This document shows positions 3,028 through 19,013 of a stretch of 24,161 nt of DNA, piece by piece; position 1 is the first letter of the stretch; every line of letters begins with the position of its first letter. Under the pieces are notes generated by a model, which saw nothing but the letters and a program-made list of their open reading frames with translations, did not search any database and was not told the origin of the DNA. The translations under genes were made by a program, and so were the position numbers. Source of the DNA: a virus. The DNA lies in the IMG/VR virus record IMGVR_UViG_3300030328_004755, positions 10,507 through 34,667 of that record; one strand, written 5' to 3'.

Positions 3028-3855
3028 ATGAAAAATATGTATGATTACAGTAAAGTAGTCAAACTAATGAGAGATTTTTTTCAGGGTGAGAAGGGTTTTA
3101 CAGAAGTCCCTGCTCAAAGTAGGCAATCTATATTAGCTGCTTGTGAAGACCCTGCGACAATATCTCAGTATATATTTAGTGGTGTTAATTACCCATTACC
3201 TCAAACAGGGCAAATGTGGCTAGAGAGAGACTTGTTGGAAAACCCTAAAGTAAAAGGTGTTTTTTGTATAACAACTAGTTATAGAAACGAACCTAATCCA
3301 GTAGAGGGAAGGCACGATAAAATCTTTCCTATGTTTGAATTTGAGTCTCATGGCAATATAAATGATATGATTAAACTAGAAGAGGAATTGCTAGAGCATT
3401 TAGGGTTTGGCTCGGATCACCATAAGATTACATATGATGATGCTTGTAATAAATATGATACAAAAGAATTAGATTATGATGAAGAAGAAGCGTTGTGTAA
3501 GGACTTTACTCCTTGTACTTTTTTAACGCATTTTCCATTGAGGACTCATCCATTTTGGAATATGAAACACGCAGGTAATGGTATTTATAATAAAGTAGAT
3601 GTTATAATGCATGGTATGGAAACTATTGGTTCTGCTGAACGAGCAGTAGATGTAGAGGAAATGAGAAACCAATTTCATAACATATCAGATGGTGAGTATG
3701 CTAGATTGCTTTATAATCATTTTGGCGAAAAAAGAGTTGAAGATGAATTAGAAGAATATTTAGCTTTAGATATGTTTGAAAGATTTGGTGGTGGTATAGG
3801 AGTAACAAGAATGGTATCTGCTTTAAAGGCAGCAGAATTATTAAAAGGAAATTAA
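3028..3855 (+). CDS. Stand-alone class II aminoacyl-tRNA synthetase core (Asp/Asn/Lys subclass-like)
   Basis: The protein is 275 residues and consists only of a class IIb catalytic core. A motif 1-like GFTEVP lies at 23-28. Motif 2 is TSYRNEPNPVEGRHDKIFPMFEFE at about 83-106, with R86, E88 and H96 in the expected ATP-binding places. Motif 3 is GGGIGVTR at 254-261. An ETIGSAER segment matches the 'GE(I/L)xxGxxR' region that reads the amino acid. The OB-fold anticodon-binding domain that normally precedes the core is absent, so it should activate an amino acid without reading a tRNA anticodon. Known stand-alone relatives include archaeal AS-AR, bacterial AsnA (both make asparagine) and EpmA (modifies EF-P). 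Which it resembles is undecided. It starts directly after the previous stop and ends in a TAATG overlap. Confidence 0.8.
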   Translation: MKNMYDYSKVVKLMRDFFQGEKGFTEVPAQSRQSILAACEDPATISQYIFSGVNYPLPQTGQMWLERDLLENPKVKGVFCITTSYRNEPNPVEGRHDKIFPMFEFESHGNINDMIKLEEELLEHLGFGSDHHKITYDDACNKYDTKELDYDEEEALCKDFTPCTFLTHFPLRTHPFWNMKHAGNGIYNKVDVIMHGMETIGSAERAVDVEEMRNQFHNISDGEYARLLYNHFGEKRVEDELEEYLALDMFERFGGGIGVTRMVSALKAAELLKGN

Positions 3856-8977: not shown

Positions 8978-11694
8978 CAACTTTACTTAAAAAAGATTAT
9001 CAATATAGTAGTGTTCTTTGGGAAGAAGTTATGCAAAGGGTTCAAGAGATTATTCGTGATGAATACAATATATCTCCTTATGTGTCGCCAACTTTAAACC
9101 CTAAAACACCATCTCCATTTAGAATTTGGTCATCTGCTCAAGGTACAGATGCACTATATGTTGGGGCATGGCATAAAGAGTACACAATATCTGTAAATCA
9201 CTATTTAAAAACAGAGGATAGTGAAAGATTTTATAGAAAAGTTTACGAAGAGTCTGAAAGGCTTTATCAGTTATTTTTCAACAACCAAGGCACACAATCT
9301 ACACAAACTTTAGGATTTTTTGGTGGTAGACCAGAAGGAATACAAATTTCACAAGAAGGTGATTATTTTAGAATTGAAGTTTTATTTACTTGTGAAGTAT
9401 TAAGAGCTGATGATGTGGTTTATGTACAAGTATTACCTTCTGAGATTAGAGCAACAAAAAGGGCGTTGGAATTACCTTTTAACTTTTGGTCTTTAGATTT
9501 TGATGGAACAGATGATTATTTGCATTGTGGGTCTAGTATTTTTGATGTAACATCTAATGCTATTTCAATTTCTATTTGGTTTAATTTGGTTTCTACAGGG
9601 ACTAGGACATTAATTTCAAGAGGTTCTGGGACATCTGGTGCAGGTTATATGATAAATTATGAGCCATCATATCCAAGATTAGTTGTATATTCTAAAAAAT
9701 CTACTAGCTATCAGACTCTTATTTATAGTGGGAGTATATCTTATAATAAATGGAATAATTTAGTTTGGGTTAATGGAGGTACAAATAATCCATCTTATCT
9801 ATATTTAAACGGAGAATCTATAGCAACAACTACTTGGACATCAAATCTTACATCTCAATCAAGTGAAAATTTATTAATAGGGTCAAATAAATCATTTAGT
9901 ACAGAGTTTGTAGGGCAAATATCAGAAACAGCAATCTTTAACTCTGTACTATCATCTTCTGAAATATCAACTATATACAATGATGGGCAACCAATACTAT
10001 TAACAGAAAATCAAGGTGGTTATAAGTCTAGTGGTAATTTAGTATCGTATTATAGAATGGGTAGTGGTAGTGGTGATAATAGGATAACTACAGGCTATAT
10101 AGCTGATCAGGTAGATTCATCTATAGGTTCTGAAATGGTTGATAATGGTGGATTTGATGGAATTAGTAATGGTACAAATGTAACAAGTTTAGATGATTGG
10201 ACTGCATACGGAACAGCAATAAGTACAACTATAGAAGATGGTAAACTAAGGATAGTTAGTGATGCTTTAGGTGAGGGTGCTAAATTATTAATTACTGGTG
10301 CTACAAATGATGCTTTTTATAGGTTTACTTGTGATGTTACAGGTGATTTAGGGCTACATAGTGTTTATGCTCTTACTGTTGAGGGTAATGCAAATATTAG
10401 TACAACAAATGGTTCAGTAGATATAGTTTTAGTTGGATATGCTAGTAAAATAACTATAATATTTAGAGCAGGAACAGGAACATCTGGTGGAACATCATAT
10501 TATGATAATATTTCAGTAAAACCACTTAATGGAAATGCAGGTTCTATGGCGAACTTCGACAGCCTAGATTTTAGAACTAATGTACCACTATTATATGATA
10601 AAGCATTATTTTCAAATTCATTGGTATTTGATGGTACTGATGATTATGTTGATATTTCAAGTATAGGTGATTACGGAACTGGTGCATTTTCTTGGTCAGT
10701 TTGGTTTAAATGTGGAAATGATGATACTATAAAGTATTTATTAGGTAATATATCAGCATTAAATACGCTATATATAACATCAACAGAAGCAATAAGGTTT
10801 AGAATAGCAAATGGTCAAGTAACAACAGAAGCTGGAGCATTGTCAAGCCCTTTAACTTGGAATCATATTGTTGCTACAAGAGATGGTTCTAATGTAGTTA
10901 AAATATATTTAAATGGGGTAGAACAAGCATTATTGCAATCAGATGGTTCTACATATTCAACAGATGATTTAACTTTATCTGGTACGCAAGAAATAAAATA
11001 TATAGGTAAGGAGAGTAGTGATTATGTAGATGCAACTTTTTCAGATGTAGCTTTATTTTCTACAGGTTTAGATGCCACTAATGTAACTGCTATATACAAC
11101 TCTGGTAAACCTATAGACTTAACTTGTGATGCAGGTAATTATAATAACGCTAATAATTTAGTGGGTTATTGGAAAATGGGAGATGGGTATTTAGATGAAT
11201 TGCCGAGTGCTGATATTAATGGTGCAATAGTAGACCAAGTAACACCTATAATAGGAGATGATGTTTTAAGTCATAATATTGATGATTGGACTCTTGGTAA
11301 TAATTCTGGTGCAACTTCAACAAAAGCGTATTCTGATGGAGTTTATACAATTACAAGAGAATCTGAAGGAACTGGTACAGCATATACTTATATAATTCAA
11401 TCTGGCATAGAAAATAACACTTTATATAAAGTTAATTTTAGTTATAAAACTACAGTAAATTTAGAAGTTTTAGGCACATATGATACTGGCTCAGCAATAG
11501 CACTATCACCAACAACTGAATATATTGAAAAAACTGTATTTATTTTAACAAACTCTACTTATGCTGGTAAATTTCAAATAAGAGCAGTAGGAAATTTTCA
11601 ATTAAAAAATTTAACATATAAAAAAGTTAATGGAAATTCAGGGTTATGTGTAAATATGAACGCATCAGCACAATCAATTAGCGTACCAAAATAG
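8974..11694 (+). CDS. Tail-terminator-like domain fused to two LamG plus jelly-roll units
   Basis: 906 residues. Residues 1-160 are a paralogue of the preceding terminator-like protein. They are followed by a tandem unit: LamG/concanavalin-like domain 1 (173-340, starting SLDFDGTDDYLHCGSSIF, with the classical SIWFNL strand and a YLYLNGESI turn) and a CBM-like jelly-roll (about 380-518, MVDNGGFDGISNGTNVTSLD, then DDWTAYG). Then comes LamG 2 (548-713, LVFDGTDDYVDISSIGDYG, KIYLNGVEQ) and a second jelly-roll (about 755-890, with DDWTLGN). Both units close with 'NGNAG/NGNSG'. LamG and such beta-sandwiches usually bind sugars or proteins, so the protein probably decorates the neck or tail with glycan-binding domains. 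Coupled by ATGA. Fusion to a terminator-like domain is unusual. Confidence 0.7.
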   Translation: MTTLLKKDYQYSSVLWEEVMQRVQEIIRDEYNISPYVSPTLNPKTPSPFRIWSSAQGTDALYVGAWHKEYTISVNHYLKTEDSERFYRKVYEESERLYQLFFNNQGTQSTQTLGFFGGRPEGIQISQEGDYFRIEVLFTCEVLRADDVVYVQVLPSEIRATKRALELPFNFWSLDFDGTDDYLHCGSSIFDVTSNAISISIWFNLVSTGTRTLISRGSGTSGAGYMINYEPSYPRLVVYSKKSTSYQTLIYSGSISYNKWNNLVWVNGGTNNPSYLYLNGESIATTTWTSNLTSQSSENLLIGSNKSFSTEFVGQISETAIFNSVLSSSEISTIYNDGQPILLTENQGGYKSSGNLVSYYRMGSGSGDNRITTGYIADQVDSSIGSEMVDNGGFDGISNGTNVTSLDDWTAYGTAISTTIEDGKLRIVSDALGEGAKLLITGATNDAFYRFTCDVTGDLGLHSVYALTVEGNANISTTNGSVDIVLVGYASKITIIFRAGTGTSGGTSYYDNISVKPLNGNAGSMANFDSLDFRTNVPLLYDKALFSNSLVFDGTDDYVDISSIGDYGTGAFSWSVWFKCGNDDTIKYLLGNISALNTLYITSTEAIRFRIANGQVTTEAGALSSPLTWNHIVATRDGSNVVKIYLNGVEQALLQSDGSTYSTDDLTLSGTQEIKYIGKESSDYVDATFSDVALFSTGLDATNVTAIYNSGKPIDLTCDAGNYNNANNLVGYWKMGDGYLDELPSADINGAIVDQVTPIIGDDVLSHNIDDWTLGNNSGATSTKAYSDGVYTITRESEGTGTAYTYIIQSGIENNTLYKVNFSYKTTVNLEVLGTYDTGSAIALSPTTEYIEKTVFILTNSTYAGKFQIRAVGNFQLKNLTYKKVNGNSGLCVNMNASAQSISVPK
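9490..10557 (+). repeat. LamG + jelly-roll repeat unit 1
   Basis: Codons 173-528 of the 906-residue gene. Shares boundary motifs with unit 2: FDGTDDY at the start, 'YN(D/S)G(Q/K)PI' at the end of the LamG domain, 'NNLV(S/G)Y(Y/W)(R/K)MG' in the linker, a 'DDWT' near the jelly-roll start and 'NG(N)(A/S)G' at the close. Similarity is at protein level; the DNA is diverged. Confidence 0.7.
10615..11661 (+). repeat. LamG + jelly-roll repeat unit 2
   Basis: Codons 548-896 of the same gene, the second copy of the LamG plus jelly-roll unit with the same boundary motifs in the same order. Indicates an old internal duplication. Confidence 0.7.
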
Positions 11695-13862: not shown

Positions 13863-15846
13863 TATAACAATAAAGTTTCAAGCTAAAGGTAATGAAGCCT
13901 TAGAAATTGCTATTAAAAAACTCGATATAGCGACTAAGCGTTTAACAGGAAAAACTTCTAAATACGAAAAAGAGACTAAAAAAGGAGCTATGGGAAACAG
14001 ACTTTTAAGTAATTCTTTTGCTACTTTAAGGTCAAAAATGCTTTTGGTTAATTTTGCTATGGGTTTGGGAATTACTCAGTTAATAAAATTTGGTAAACAA
14101 GCTGCAAAAGTTCAATCAATGGAAAGAGCTTTTACTAATTTGTCAGGAGGGACTGCAAATGCCTCTATTGCAGTAAATAAATTAAAAGATGCTACCGATG
14201 GTACGATTTCAGAGTTTGATCTTTTTCAACAAGCTAATAATGCTATGATACTTGGAGTTACTAAAAATTCTGATGAAATGGCTAAAATGTTTGATATGGC
14301 TCAAAGATTGGGAGCTGCACTAGGTAAAGACACTAGACAATCTATTGAATCTCTTATTACTGGTATTGGTAGGCAATCTAGGTTGATGTTGGATAATATT
14401 GGTATAATTGTAAAAACAGAAGATGCTTATAAAAAATATGCCAATGAGCTTGAAAAGAATGTAGATCAATTAACTGATTCCGAAAGAAAACAAGCGTTTA
14501 TGAACGCTACATTAGAGGCAGCAGAAGAAAAATTAACTAGAGTTGGAGATGAAGTTTTATTTGCTGATGCACATTTTCAAAGAATAGCAGTATCTTTGGA
14601 AGAATTATCTTTAACTGTAGGTGAAGCATTATTACCAGTTATAGAGCCTTTGGCAGATCAAATGGTTAAACTTTCTGAAATTGACTCTAAAGATATAAAA
14701 GAATTTGCTACTGCTATGTCTTTGACAGCAGGGACTTTTGTAGCCGCTAATGTTGCTGCAAATGCTTTTGCTTTAGGAATAGATGCTGTAAAATTAAAAC
14801 TTAGATCATTGGCTATAAGTACAGGAATAGGTGCGGTATTTGTAGTTATGACATTAACTTTAGAAAAATTAATATCTGAAATGGGAATATTTGAGGATAG
14901 CGTAGAAGATGCTATAGTCCCTACTAAAAGTTTTGCTGATCAAATAAAAGAAGCAGAAATAAACCAAAAACTTTTTAACGAAAAATTAAAGCAAGGCAAT
15001 GATCTTTTTAATGATAGAGATATTTTGCTTATTAAATTAAAAGAAGCTCAAGGAGGATTAACAGCTTTAGAAGCTAGACAAGCAATTCTTAATGAAAAAA
15101 GAAAAGATTTATTAGTTGAATTAAATGGTATAGAAGACCAGGGTTCAATTAGGGCTATAGAATTAACTAATAAAAGAATAGAATTAGATATAGAAAGCCA
15201 AAATATAAAAAAAGAAATTGCAGACTTAGAATTAAAAGAAGATCAGAGAAAAGCTATTGCACAAACTAGAGATAGTGCTATGCAAGAATATATGTTAGAA
15301 TTGCAATCTCAAAAAGAAGATTTAGACAAGCAAGAGATAGAACTGTCTAAAGAAATTAGAAAATTAAAAAAACAAATGCTAGATGATACCGTTAAAAATG
15401 CTATGTTAGGGAATCAAAGCGTAAAAGATGCTATGATAAATACAATTAAAGCAGAAACAGCAGAAGCTATAGCAGGATATATATCCTCTTTATTTCAGAA
15501 TTTACCATTCCCTATTGCAGCTACCTTGTCAGCAGGAGCAGGTGCTTTTGTAGGTTCTATAATGAATAAAAATGTACCTACTTTTGAACAAGGTGGTATG
15601 GTTGGTGGTCGTAGACATTCGCAAGGTGGCACTATGATAGAGGCAGAGCAAGGTGAGTTTGTTATGAGTAGGAGTGCTGTCGAGGCAGTAGGTATAGAAA
15701 ATATGAATAGAATCAATCAAGGTGGTGGTGCAGGTATTACTGTAAATGTATCAGGAAATGTAATGACACAAGACTTTGTAGAAAATGATTTAGCAGAAGC
15801 AATTAAAGAGGCAGCTCGTAAAGGTGCTGATTTCGGTATTTCATGA
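13846..15846 (+). CDS. Tape measure protein
   Basis: 666 residues. An N-terminal helical region is followed by hydrophobic segments at about 64-80, 285-312 and 322-343, long coiled-coil stretches at about 365-515 (charged heptads, no Pro), a hydrophobic Ala/Gly segment at 540-573, and a Gly-rich end (FEQGGMVGGRRHSQGG) usual for tape measures. Such proteins set tail length; at about 0.15 nm per residue the tail would be near 100 nm. It follows the gpG/gpT-like chaperone and overlaps it by 17 bases, and it is coupled to the hub gene by an ATGA overlap. No lytic domain is seen. Confidence 0.85.
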   Translation: MAKGNNITIKFQAKGNEALEIAIKKLDIATKRLTGKTSKYEKETKKGAMGNRLLSNSFATLRSKMLLVNFAMGLGITQLIKFGKQAAKVQSMERAFTNLSGGTANASIAVNKLKDATDGTISEFDLFQQANNAMILGVTKNSDEMAKMFDMAQRLGAALGKDTRQSIESLITGIGRQSRLMLDNIGIIVKTEDAYKKYANELEKNVDQLTDSERKQAFMNATLEAAEEKLTRVGDEVLFADAHFQRIAVSLEELSLTVGEALLPVIEPLADQMVKLSEIDSKDIKEFATAMSLTAGTFVAANVAANAFALGIDAVKLKLRSLAISTGIGAVFVVMTLTLEKLISEMGIFEDSVEDAIVPTKSFADQIKEAEINQKLFNEKLKQGNDLFNDRDILLIKLKEAQGGLTALEARQAILNEKRKDLLVELNGIEDQGSIRAIELTNKRIELDIESQNIKKEIADLELKEDQRKAIAQTRDSAMQEYMLELQSQKEDLDKQEIELSKEIRKLKKQMLDDTVKNAMLGNQSVKDAMINTIKAETAEAIAGYISSLFQNLPFPIAATLSAGAGAFVGSIMNKNVPTFEQGGMVGGRRHSQGGTMIEAEQGEFVMSRSAVEAVGIENMNRINQGGGAGITVNVSGNVMTQDFVENDLAEAIKEAARKGADFGIS

Positions 15847-18800
15847 TAACTTCTTTAAAATTTAATTCTGACACATTATCGAATACTACTAATATTGTTC
15901 CTTTAGTTTATATAGAAAAAACTATTGCTGATGAGGTTAATATTATGGGATTTTCTACTTATCAATTAGAATTAACAGATATAAATGATAAGCCTTTGCA
16001 GTACCATCCTCTTTTGTTAAATATTCCTTCTATAAGTGAAAAAATAAACATAGAAACTAGAAAGTTTGTAATTTCATCTGTAACTTTAAATTTATCAAAC
16101 ATTGAATATTTAGGTGAAAAACTTAGTGATAAATATAATTTATTGATTAATTCTAATGTATATATTTATTACAAAACTCAAAGTGCAAATACTTTAGAAG
16201 AATGTTTAAAAGTATATTCTGGAAAAGTAAAAAGAATTAATCATTCGAATGAAGATATAAATCTAATTCTAGAAGATATGTCTCAAGAGAAAATACAAAA
16301 ACAAATTCCTAAAAATAAAATTCCTGATATTCCTGAAATTCAAGAGGAATATAGGCTAGAACCTATACCAATGGTGTATGGTAATGTAGAAAAATCTCCT
16401 TTAGTAAAATATGCTAAAAAAATAAATGTTGCTAATGATGGAGATTTAAATGAATATGCTGAAAAAATGAATTTTTTACCTGACAATATAGATGATTATA
16501 TATTACAAGATACAATTAATATTAATGGATATAAATATGATAATTTTATATACGCAGGATATTTTATAGGTGGCAATAATAGATTTAATACCCCTTTATA
16601 TATCTATGATAATGGTTATGGAAATATAGTAAATAAATATGATAATTTATCACAAAGTCTTGGTAATAATGTATTTATAAATTCCGACAAAACAATATTT
16701 ATTCAAAAAACTTATCAAGAAGATGGTACGCCTGTTAATTTAATTTCTCAAAATATATTAGAAGTAATTGCAGATTGTGAAACTTATGACCCATGTATGA
16801 TTAATCCTGTAGTTAAAAATAATGAATCAAACAATCAATCAGGTCTTTTTTTACCTGAAATAGTAAGTAGATTATATAGTAGGGGGTTTGATATTTCATA
16901 CTTACAAACCTCATATCCTAATGGCGATCCAGTCTCTTCAATAGTTTTAAATGAAAGTTTAGAATATAATGGAGAAATATATCAACCTATAGATACTATT
17001 TTTGATAAAAACACATCAGTATTTTTTGAAGGCATTTTAAAAGAAGGTAGTTTAGGCGATACTATTGGTGAAAATAATCAAAGATTAATGTTTATGTGCC
17101 AAACTAATTCTCCAAAAATAAACTACAAAAGAGGTGCTGTAATAGTAAATTGGAAAGGCTATGCAAGTACAGAGAATCTTGGAGAAAAACCTTTTTATAT
17201 TAAATTTATAAATACAGGCTTAAGCGATCCTGAAACAGATGTAGGTGAAGAAAGCAATATAGACCCTGTATTATGGTATTACAAAACTAGTTTTAATGAT
17301 GTTTTTTTTGGTGATGACCCTATTTTTAATGATTTGCCAGATAGTGCGGCATTAGGTACTTTTGGATTTATGTTTTATTTTCCCTCTGTTGGCGAAGGAT
17401 ATCAGACTGATGAATATACAAATTTTAATGTAAGATTTGATCAATTAAACTTGTCTTACCATTTAGAATTAGAAGATACTAACTTGCTTGAAAAAAATGA
17501 TTTTTACGCTAATGTTTATGGAAGGTGTAAAGAAGGAAATTATTATTATTATAGAGATTTTAATGCTAATTTTAAAATAAGCGATAATAATTTTATAGAC
17601 AATTTTTTAGATTCTAATTATAATTTATACAATTTTGATAATAATGTAGAGTATTTTATTTTAAATCCAAATGATACTTTTGATAATTTTATACATTATG
17701 TAAAACCTGATTCCTTAGAGCTTTCTAGGGCAACTATAGATGGCTCAATAGATGAAAATTATATTAATATTAATTTTACTGGTAAAGTTGTAGATTCAGA
17801 AGGGAATGATAACCTTAGTGGTGAACCTTCGATTCCCTACGATTTTAATAATATAGGTATTAAATTCTACAATAATGAAGAGATATATATATTTAAAACA
17901 GACAATAATTCATTACTAGATCAACAATATGGAATTTTAGGATTTTTACCATTATATAAACCTGCTGAAATAATTTCAAGTATTTTAAAACAAGAATGTA
18001 ATTATGAATTAGAAATTCCAGAAATAAATATAAATAATGTTGATTCAAATTATAAACAATGGAAAATGTCTTTCACTCAAAAAGACACAATAAATGGTAA
18101 AGATTTAATAGAAGAAATATGTCAATCAACAAAATCATTTGGAAGATTTAGAGGGTTTGATGAAAAATTTTCTTGGAATACAATTAAAGATAGCTATTCA
18201 GAGGAAGATATAGACTTTACAATTCCAAATCAAGATATAATAAGTTATAAATACAACAGAACTAAACTAGAAAATGTTAAAACAAAAATTAAAGTTAATT
18301 ACAATTATGATTATGCTACAAAGAAATTTACAAAAGAAACTGATGAAATAAATGTAAATCAATTAGTTTATCTTGAAAGTGGTTATAATTATAATTATTA
18401 TGGCATAGACGAAAATAATGAAGATAGTGCTTTAGAGTTTGAAAGTAAGTATATAAGAGATAATTATACTGCAGAACAGCTAAGAAACTGGTTGTTATCT
18501 TGGCACATGAACCAACACAGTTTACTTACATTACAATTATCTATAAAATATAATTTATTAGAAGTTGGTGATATAATTGCTTTTGATAAAGAAATACAAG
18601 GGTTGAAATTGTATGGTGAAACTTACACAGCTAATATGGGTTTAAATGAGGATGGTCTTTTAGTAGATTTAAATGAAACTTATAGAAATGGTCAATTAAT
18701 ATATCCTTATTTTATGATTTATGAAACAAAAAAAAGCATAGATAAAGTTGAAATAAAGTTAATACAATTACATCATAACGATCCTAATTTCTTTTTACCA

Positions 18801-19013
18801 CCACCTGAAGAAGGTGAGGATATAGACTTGACACCTACAGGCGATGTTAATTTAGATGGAAGCGTTGATGTATTAGATATAGTTGCTTTAATAGGACACA
18901 TACTAGAGACATCACAATTAACAGTAGACCAAGGATATGAAGCAGATTTAAATCAAGATAGTAATTTAGATATTTTAGATGTAGTTCAGCTAGTAGGGAT
19001 AATTTTACGATGA
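15843..19013 (+). CDS. Tail hub/tip protein with C-terminal dockerin-like domain
   Basis: 1056 residues, straight after the tape measure gene (ATGA overlap). The N-terminal region (ISSVTLNLSNIEYLGEKLSD, then LKVYSGKVKRI and LILEDMS) and the C-terminal third (RNWLLSWHMNQHSLLTLQLS, then LEVGDIIAFD) carry the beta-patterns of phage tail hub/tip proteins. The region 150-850 is very Asn/Asp/Tyr rich. After an acidic linker (PPPEEGEDIDL), residues 1001-1046 form two calcium-binding loops, DVNLDGSVDVLD and DLNQDSNLDILD, each followed by a hydrophobic helix (IVALIGHIL; VVQLVGIIL). This is a type I dockerin-like pair. A hub in the baseplate would meet the receptor first; the dockerin could anchor another protein. 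Confidence 0.75.
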   Translation: MITSLKFNSDTLSNTTNIVPLVYIEKTIADEVNIMGFSTYQLELTDINDKPLQYHPLLLNIPSISEKINIETRKFVISSVTLNLSNIEYLGEKLSDKYNLLINSNVYIYYKTQSANTLEECLKVYSGKVKRINHSNEDINLILEDMSQEKIQKQIPKNKIPDIPEIQEEYRLEPIPMVYGNVEKSPLVKYAKKINVANDGDLNEYAEKMNFLPDNIDDYILQDTININGYKYDNFIYAGYFIGGNNRFNTPLYIYDNGYGNIVNKYDNLSQSLGNNVFINSDKTIFIQKTYQEDGTPVNLISQNILEVIADCETYDPCMINPVVKNNESNNQSGLFLPEIVSRLYSRGFDISYLQTSYPNGDPVSSIVLNESLEYNGEIYQPIDTIFDKNTSVFFEGILKEGSLGDTIGENNQRLMFMCQTNSPKINYKRGAVIVNWKGYASTENLGEKPFYIKFINTGLSDPETDVGEESNIDPVLWYYKTSFNDVFFGDDPIFNDLPDSAALGTFGFMFYFPSVGEGYQTDEYTNFNVRFDQLNLSYHLELEDTNLLEKNDFYANVYGRCKEGNYYYYRDFNANFKISDNNFIDNFLDSNYNLYNFDNNVEYFILNPNDTFDNFIHYVKPDSLELSRATIDGSIDENYININFTGKVVDSEGNDNLSGEPSIPYDFNNIGIKFYNNEEIYIFKTDNNSLLDQQYGILGFLPLYKPAEIISSILKQECNYELEIPEININNVDSNYKQWKMSFTQKDTINGKDLIEEICQSTKSFGRFRGFDEKFSWNTIKDSYSEEDIDFTIPNQDIISYKYNRTKLENVKTKIKVNYNYDYATKKFTKETDEINVNQLVYLESGYNYNYYGIDENNEDSALEFESKYIRDNYTAEQLRNWLLSWHMNQHSLLTLQLSIKYNLLEVGDIIAFDKEIQGLKLYGETYTANMGLNEDGLLVDLNETYRNGQLIYPYFMIYETKKSIDKVEIKLIQLHHNDPNFFLPPPEEGEDIDLTPTGDVNLDGSVDVLDIVALIGHILETSQLTVDQGYEADLNQDSNLDILDVVQLVGIILR

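Follow-up and report, generated by a model that had tools for sequence, protein, structure and literature searches.

A stand-alone catalytic core of a class II aminoacyl-tRNA synthetase (aaRS), encoded in a phage late region, belongs to a family that very probably acts at the entry to pyrimidine synthesis. On balance, we favour as the explanation of the observations as a whole an enzyme derived from asparaginyl-tRNA synthetase (AsnRS) that would open this pathway, accompanied in many phages by a tRNA that would carry asparagine. CarAB, PyrB and PyrC form the textbook entry to pyrimidines. Paralogues of aaRS cores with metabolic functions are known as such; we know of none that opens pyrimidine synthesis with an apparently non-decoding partner tRNA. 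A search of the open literature, with subscription papers and preprints mostly outside its reach, brought to light neither this function nor this tRNA, and no aaRS-fold substitute for CarAB, PyrB or PyrC; the asnB-pyrB2-pydC cluster of PMC10119275 is, judging from the accessible part of that paper, something else. If true, the explanation would account for how bacteria such as Aureispira manage without PyrB, would give phages, small archaea and CPR bacteria an additional pyrimidine route, and would be the first case of a viral tRNA retained for metabolism and not for decoding. PHROG 29758, a family of unknown function, becomes directly testable.

The gene lies in a window of 24,161 nucleotides (positions 10,507 to 34,667 of IMG/VR record IMGVR_UViG_3300030328_004755) with a GC content of 31.5 %. 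Its product (Table 1) matched the class II D/K/N profile PF00152 over residues 3-268 (E 3.1e-20, 72.9 bits against a cut-off of 25) and, over residues 6-267, positions 9-266 of 267 in the PHROG 29758 profile (E 8.4e-98), which is annotated as 'unknown function'. An earlier note, made from the sequence alone, had described a class II aaRS core in a phage late region. The core is real, with PF00152 above its curated cut-off and motifs 2 and 3 present, and the placement was borne out by lysozyme upstream and tail genes downstream of the gene. Tape measure, tail and lysozyme genes were identified in the window by profile searches, and terminase-, portal- and capsid-like ORFs were seen by eye in its 34,667-base record. 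The Pfam and PHROG matches, at least 598 viral relatives and a confident model ruled out chance or artefact as the source of the ORF. Tail proteins very rich in Asn, to which the earlier note had also pointed, are represented by one ORF (15843-19013, 11.3 % Asn), but 15 ORFs counted together contained 7.4 %. The late region also encodes a sulfotransferase/capsule-type protein (positions 506-1210; PF10364 E 2e-12, PF03567 E 1e-4).

Table 1. Positions of the gene, of conserved elements in its product and of related loci; positions given without a locus name are those of the window
Feature	Position or loci	Strand	Basis or detail
Stand-alone AsnRS-like class II core, 275 aa	3028..3855	+	ORF with ATG start, PF00152, PHROG 29758
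E66 of PQTGQMWLE; invariant, aligned to AsnRS Glu	3223..3225	+	Alignment
Motif 2 region, residues 85-106, YRNE...RH...EFE	3280..3345	+	Alignment
K189; invariant in 73 relatives	3592..3594	+	Alignment
R205 of ETIGSAER; aligned to AspRS/AsnRS side-chain Arg	3640..3642	+	Alignment
Motif 3 region, residues 252-262, GGGIGVTR	3781..3813	+	Alignment
Bacteroidota unlinked tRNA	L453:2261-2375		Loop TTGTCTC
Bacteroidota unlinked tRNA	L452:2354-2222		Loop TTGTCGC
CPR Dus/dnaX loci	L130, L132, L138, L139, L140, L153, L155, L164, L169, L171

The AlphaFold model of the protein (pLDDT 95.0, pTM 0.92) aligned over residues 2-270 with the AsnRS catalytic domain 2xti (Z 27.7, rmsd 2.2, 246 residues). VIA-align Z scores were 26.7-27.7 for the AsnRS structures 2xti, 8h53 and 1x54, the last of which was the top Foldseek match (E 2.1e-19), 26.6 for AspRS 1b8a, 24.6 for the archaeal AS-AR (3p8t, 3reu, 3rex; 3rex scored 24.6) and 23.3 for EpmA 3a5y. 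The protein shares with AsnRS the fold, motifs 2 and 3 and the E66 and R205 positions. It differs from AsnRS in having 23-24 % identity over the structural alignments, in family invariants of its own (such as C39, F100-P101, N178 and K189) and in the absence of the OB anticodon-binding domain, which the earlier note had already reported missing: in the model, the catalytic core takes up residues 2-270 of 275. Scores against NCBIfam models were far below the cut-offs for AsnRS (28.0 bits against 414 and 24.3 against 342.6), for AS-AR (PRK06462, 21.4 against 389), for EpmA (31.7 against 264 and 19.7 against 286.9) and for AspRS and LysRS, and 10 other family members likewise scored far below NCBIfam cut-offs.

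Motifs 2 and 3 align with those of E. coli AsnRS, AspRS and LysRS, and the motif arginines are retained. Among 73 aligned phage, bacterial and archaeal sequences 46 columns are invariant, including the family invariants just named, R86, E88, R95-H96, E104 and E106 of motif 2 and R261 of motif 3; this rules out a degenerate fragment. The key residues of both motifs, checked by alignment, are intact and point to a core competent for activation. The pocket was aligned with E. coli AsnRS, AspRS, LysRS, AsnA and EpmA and with 17 homologues from other genomes. In the E66 column the Glu is shared with AsnRS, while Lys occupies this position in AspRS and in E. coli AsnA; in the K189 column the AsnRS/AspRS references have A, S, C and similar residues and the LysRS/EpmA references have Arg. 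The E66 and R205 positions are presumably side-chain readers, as in AsnRS/AspRS structures. The alignments suggest that the family is likely to be a conserved catalyst, with asparagine as its probable amino acid. This agrees with the earlier view of a core of the Asp/Asn/Lys group that plausibly acts outside ordinary aminoacylation and is linked to asparagine.

At least 598 relatives were found in viral contigs, among 599 matched stretches listed, and at least 131 in cellular contigs, among 188 stretches; the best 80 of each were retained. The named phage collection contained nine records with the gene, including P-SSM2, P-SSM5, P-SSM7 and three uncultured large-phage records (735, 735 and 484 kb). 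Cellular carriers comprised Gammaproteobacteria MAGs, CPR, Nano-, Woese- and Pacearchaeota, Chlamydiota, Dependentiae, Aureispira, other Bacteroidota, Pasteurella atlantica and others. In a quick maximum likelihood tree of 86 rows, the 77 family rows formed one long-branched clade of their own, away from AsnRS/AspRS, with at least nine switches between phages and cells; the rows nearest the window protein were L005 and L006. In the accessible part of PMC3037559 the P-SSM2/P-SSM7 gene is given as 'tRNA ligase', with nothing more.

Pyrimidine genes beside the gene and missing from its genomes

Neighbouring ORFs within 5 kb on each side of the gene were compared all-against-all in 168 loci, and UMP-synthesis genes topped the shared neighbours. 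PyrE-, PyrF- or PyrD-type or small PRTase genes lay within 5 kb in 27 of 80 cellular loci (the best 80 of 131), one of which (L157) resembles a phage contig in a MAG; no pyr neighbour was present within that distance in the other 53. When Pfam was applied to 18 pyr-type neighbours, 17 matched OMPdecase, DHO_dh or phosphoribosyltransferase (12 above the curated cut-off and five below, mostly small PRTase) and the 18th was PRPP synthetase. Typical gene orders were gene-pyrE-pyrF (L100-L103) and, sometimes with an added prs, gene-pyrF-PRTase-pyrD (L121, L125, L150, L162 and L176). CPR loci differ in having Dus and dnaX as neighbours in place of pyr genes (Table 1). Dus lies near the gene, mostly upstream, and is followed by the gene and then dnaX, often with tRNA-Gln beyond. 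On the chromosome of Pasteurella atlantica (L125:3604-6892) the gene is accompanied by a pyrF of its own and, next to pyrD, by a gene for a small PRTase; a second pyrF is located elsewhere in this genome, in which no PyrB exceeded the cut-off.

Pathway completeness was compared between 27 gene-carrying genomes (L139 left out) and 14 control genomes. PyrB and PyrC each exceeded the curated cut-off in one of the 27 and CarB in two, with one further 949-bit match just under, but PyrF did so in 25. All 14 controls matched each of PyrB, PyrC, CarB and PyrF, over the cut-off in 14, 11, 14 and 14 genomes, respectively. One exception, a Coatesbacteria genome (G027), carries the gene together with PyrB and PyrC. 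Six Bacteroidota carriers have PyrC-like matches of 204-262 bits, under the cut-off of 279, and PyrF is missing in two CPR carriers. Within the order of Aureispira, the gene was present in seven of 149 genomes. PyrB (E<=1e-40) was found in 123 of the 149 and in none of the seven, so that it was missing from 7/7 gene-positive and 19/142 gene-negative genomes (P 2.3e-6, kinship ignored); PyrC was over the cut-off in 109 of the 149 and again in none of the seven (P 6.6e-5, kinship ignored).

The link to pyr genes, and the complementarity with them, is a property of cellular family members and not of the window's own record, in whose ORF lists no pyr gene was recognisable (Pfam was run on some of the window ORFs). 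If that record is near complete, the window enzyme would feed the PyrD-PyrE-PyrF of its host. Some phage loci combine the enzyme and a tRNA with pyr-type genes, namely pyrF and PRTase (L065/70/71/74) or PRTase (L045), as does L157 with DHO_dh; PyrF, small PRTase and DHO_dh queries gave no match in the cultured cyanophages P-SSM2/5/7.

A tRNA paired with the gene

In P-SSM7, P-SSM5 and P-SSM2, ARAGORN placed a tRNA-Asn directly after the gene. A tRNA model (R1) was built on 11 such tRNAs; 98.9 % of its cells were paired and 23 of 25 pairs changed on both sides, which none of 500 shuffles reached. With R1, this special tRNA was detected downstream of the gene in 21 of the first 85 loci; a 22nd strong match (L066:427) is tRNA-Leu by ARAGORN. 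In two further phage groups it lay right downstream in 76/78 and 56/63 loci, and in both misses of the former group (L223 and L231) the DNA ends at the end of the gene. No adjacent tRNA was found in the 32 loci of freshwater-group phages. The 116 tRNAs picked represented 103 unique sequences of 74-108 nt (median 86), all on the strand of the gene and a median of 9 nt past its stop codon, with 102 of 103 within 400 nt. Special tRNAs of marine phages have a long variable arm, and the association of enzyme and tRNA switches at least six times on the tree.

Neither the window nor its 34,667-base record showed a special tRNA in searches with R1, ARAGORN and Rfam. A close relative of the window protein (L005, 77 % identity over 272 columns) has one 1,046 nt after the enzyme gene, and it is the closest relative to have it. 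A tmRNA (L005:7123-7456) and tRNA-Met/tRNA-Lys (L005:7461-7612) lie just upstream of the L005 enzyme gene.

G73 was present in 103/103 unique special tRNAs. The 1-72 pair was U-A in 97, A-U in five and U-G in one, and the anticodon was GUU in 95, GUU one base out of register in four, GUC in two and another in two. Among 93 clear loops, which were picked partly by anticodon (the anticodon count rests on the 103) by a finder whose bonuses of 0.3 and 0.5 favoured GUU/GUC and U33, position 37 was U in 89, and position 33 was U in 69, C in 15, A in eight and G in one (non-U33, 24/93). ARAGORN's own reading concurs (U37 in 80/92, U33 in 71/92). Ordinary tRNAs of the same loci had a purine at 37 in 113/113 and U33 in 111/113. 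Among the features of a decoding tRNA-Asn, the special tRNA thus has GUU and G73 and does not have U33 with a purine at 37.

According to the accessible parts of PMC9976931 and PMC4206432, bacterial Asn identity consists of G73 and G34-U35-U36 (and A37), Asp identity of G73 and G34-U35-C36-C38, t6A37 blocks aspartylation in yeast, and the GatCAB determinant is U1-A72. Measured against these published rules, the sequence of the special tRNA retains the amidation mark and the majority of the charging marks and loses the decoding marks. As the marks for charging and amidation (G73, GUU or GUC; U1-A72) are kept and those for decoding lost, it is probably an Asn carrier. Conservation of the anticodon can be due to a host synthetase, and is unlikely to stem from a core that lacks an anticodon-binding domain.

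Special-type tRNAs that are not linked to the gene were found in two Bacteroidota gene-carriers, on contigs with ordinary bacterial genes (Table 1). Both carry U1-A72 together with G73, GUC and C38, the last three making up the Asp identity set, and neither is detected by ARAGORN. Among the matches listed, the special tRNA occurs in two of 27 cell genomes; the other fetched R1 matches in cell genomes (7 + 3 + 20) are ordinary tRNAs, for Leu, Ser, Tyr, Asn, Gln and Phe.

Proposed route and its alternatives

The fold and pocket residues, the gene neighbourhood, the complementary gene losses and the pairing and anatomy of the tRNA were observed directly; the substrate, the reaction and the tRNA's carrier role are inferred. 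In the proposed route, the AsnRS-derived enzyme would replace the CarAB-PyrB-PyrC steps and so open an alternative way to the pyrimidine ring. It would bind asparagine as AsnRS does and use ATP and bicarbonate; the side-chain amide would attack an ATP-activated carbamate, and the ring would close to dihydroorotate, which PyrD, PyrE and PyrF would then convert to UMP. Asparagine plus CO2 minus H2O has the composition of dihydroorotate. Dethiobiotin synthetase provides chemical precedent for the ring closure, as it also activates a carbamate with ATP and closes it to a cyclic ureide; its fold is unrelated, and its activation is by phosphate whereas that of the proposed enzyme would be by AMP. 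We know of no direct precedent for dihydroorotate formation on an AsnRS fold. The predicted position in the pathway, upstream of PyrD/E/F, is that of CarAB-PyrB-PyrC, but those proteins are unrelated to the family and are absent over cut-off from most of the gene-carrying genomes tested. In a phage, the gene would raise pyrimidine supply beyond the feedback-controlled entry steps. Use of asparagine by the enzyme is the reading that we consider probable; whether the enzyme itself makes dihydroorotate is evenly balanced in our judgement.

Where the special tRNA is present, AspRS and GatCAB would make asparagine on it and the tRNA would carry the amino acid to the enzyme, which may be useful, for example, in hosts that make asparagine on tRNA only. 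As far as the accessible sources describe them, the special tRNA has the determinants of tRNA-dependent asparagine synthesis by ND-AspRS and GatCAB (G73, GUU/GUC and U1-A72), but the tRNA of that system also decodes, whereas the special tRNA has lost purine 37 and often U33. Its role as a non-decoding carrier could go either way. The complete scheme is more tentative, and we regard it as rather doubtful: de novo pyrimidine synthesis run on a tRNA, in phages and some bacteria, in which asparagine would be built by AspRS and GatCAB on a tRNA that is dedicated to this purpose and does not decode, and the core would make dihydroorotate from this tRNA-held asparagine, bicarbonate and ATP, bypassing carbamoyl phosphate.

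An alternative closer to translation is a minimal AsnRS that charges the linked tRNA(GUU) with asparagine, the pair supplying Asn-tRNA for viral proteins. The AsnRS-type pocket, AsnRS as the closest fold, the constant pairing with a GUU tRNA and ARAGORN's naming of it as tRNA-Asn are in keeping with this. However, U37 and the frequent non-U33 set it apart from decoders such as the 113 ordinary tRNAs at these loci, and a minimal AsnRS leaves unexplained the kept anticodon, given an enzyme with no OB domain, as well as the pyr operons and the lost PyrB; we consider it unlikely. An ammonia-dependent asparagine synthetase of the AS-AR/AsnA kind, with shared aspartate as the link to pyr genes, seems similarly improbable. 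It had been suggested by the earlier note, and AS-AR of archaea is likewise a class IIb core that stands alone and has a similar size (about 290 aa), but it is a weaker match than AsnRS, which outscores it in sequence and fold, and we know of no pyr setting for it. E66 is the AsnRS-type Glu where AspRS and E. coli AsnA have Lys, which makes asparagine synthesis less likely than asparagine use, and such an enzyme would explain neither the tRNA nor why PyrF is retained where PyrB, PyrC and CarB are lost. Modification of a translation factor, another role suggested there, has nothing seen pointing to it: EpmA/PoxA lysine ligase is likewise a core with no anticodon domain, but EpmA has a Lys-type pocket in the alignment, and no EF-P link was seen for the family. 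Among the roles put forward in that note the link to asparagine stood; the pyr neighbourhoods, the loss of PyrB and the paired tRNA had been missed.

The product could instead be N-carbamoyl-aspartate or another precursor, with dihydroorotase still acting downstream, since most Bacteroidota carriers still have a PyrC-like protein, which scores under the cut-off of its family. Most other gene-carriers have no notable PyrC match, though, and E66 favours an amide substrate, so that we give this reading little probability. Least probable is that the tRNA diverts host anticodon nucleases as a decoy and is linked to the core indirectly: a decoy would account for a kept anticodon with lost decoding marks, but not for the constancy of U1-A72 and G73, the median distance of 9 nt to the enzyme gene or the unlinked copies in two gene-carrying Bacteroidota genomes.

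Further tRNA-like elements

In one freshwater phage, two weaker R1 matches (45 bits) lie upstream of the gene (L342:10-129 and L342:1800-1890). On the contig of L015, a tRNA cluster some 10 kb upstream of the enzyme gene includes a tRNA-like element of 141 nt (L090:1501-1641) that has U1-A72 and G73 and may correspond, in the freshwater group, to the special tRNA. On the contig of L014, at least five tRNA-like elements form an array on a single strand (L091:1501-1613, L093:1501-1601), with a common acceptor stem and a highly variable middle; two of those fetched pass the Rfam tRNA gathering score. The tRNA-Asn of P-SSM2 (L083:8786-8873) is given at 164094-164179 in AY939844.2, a position that looks wrong, as ARAGORN located it right after the gene, near 162082-162169.
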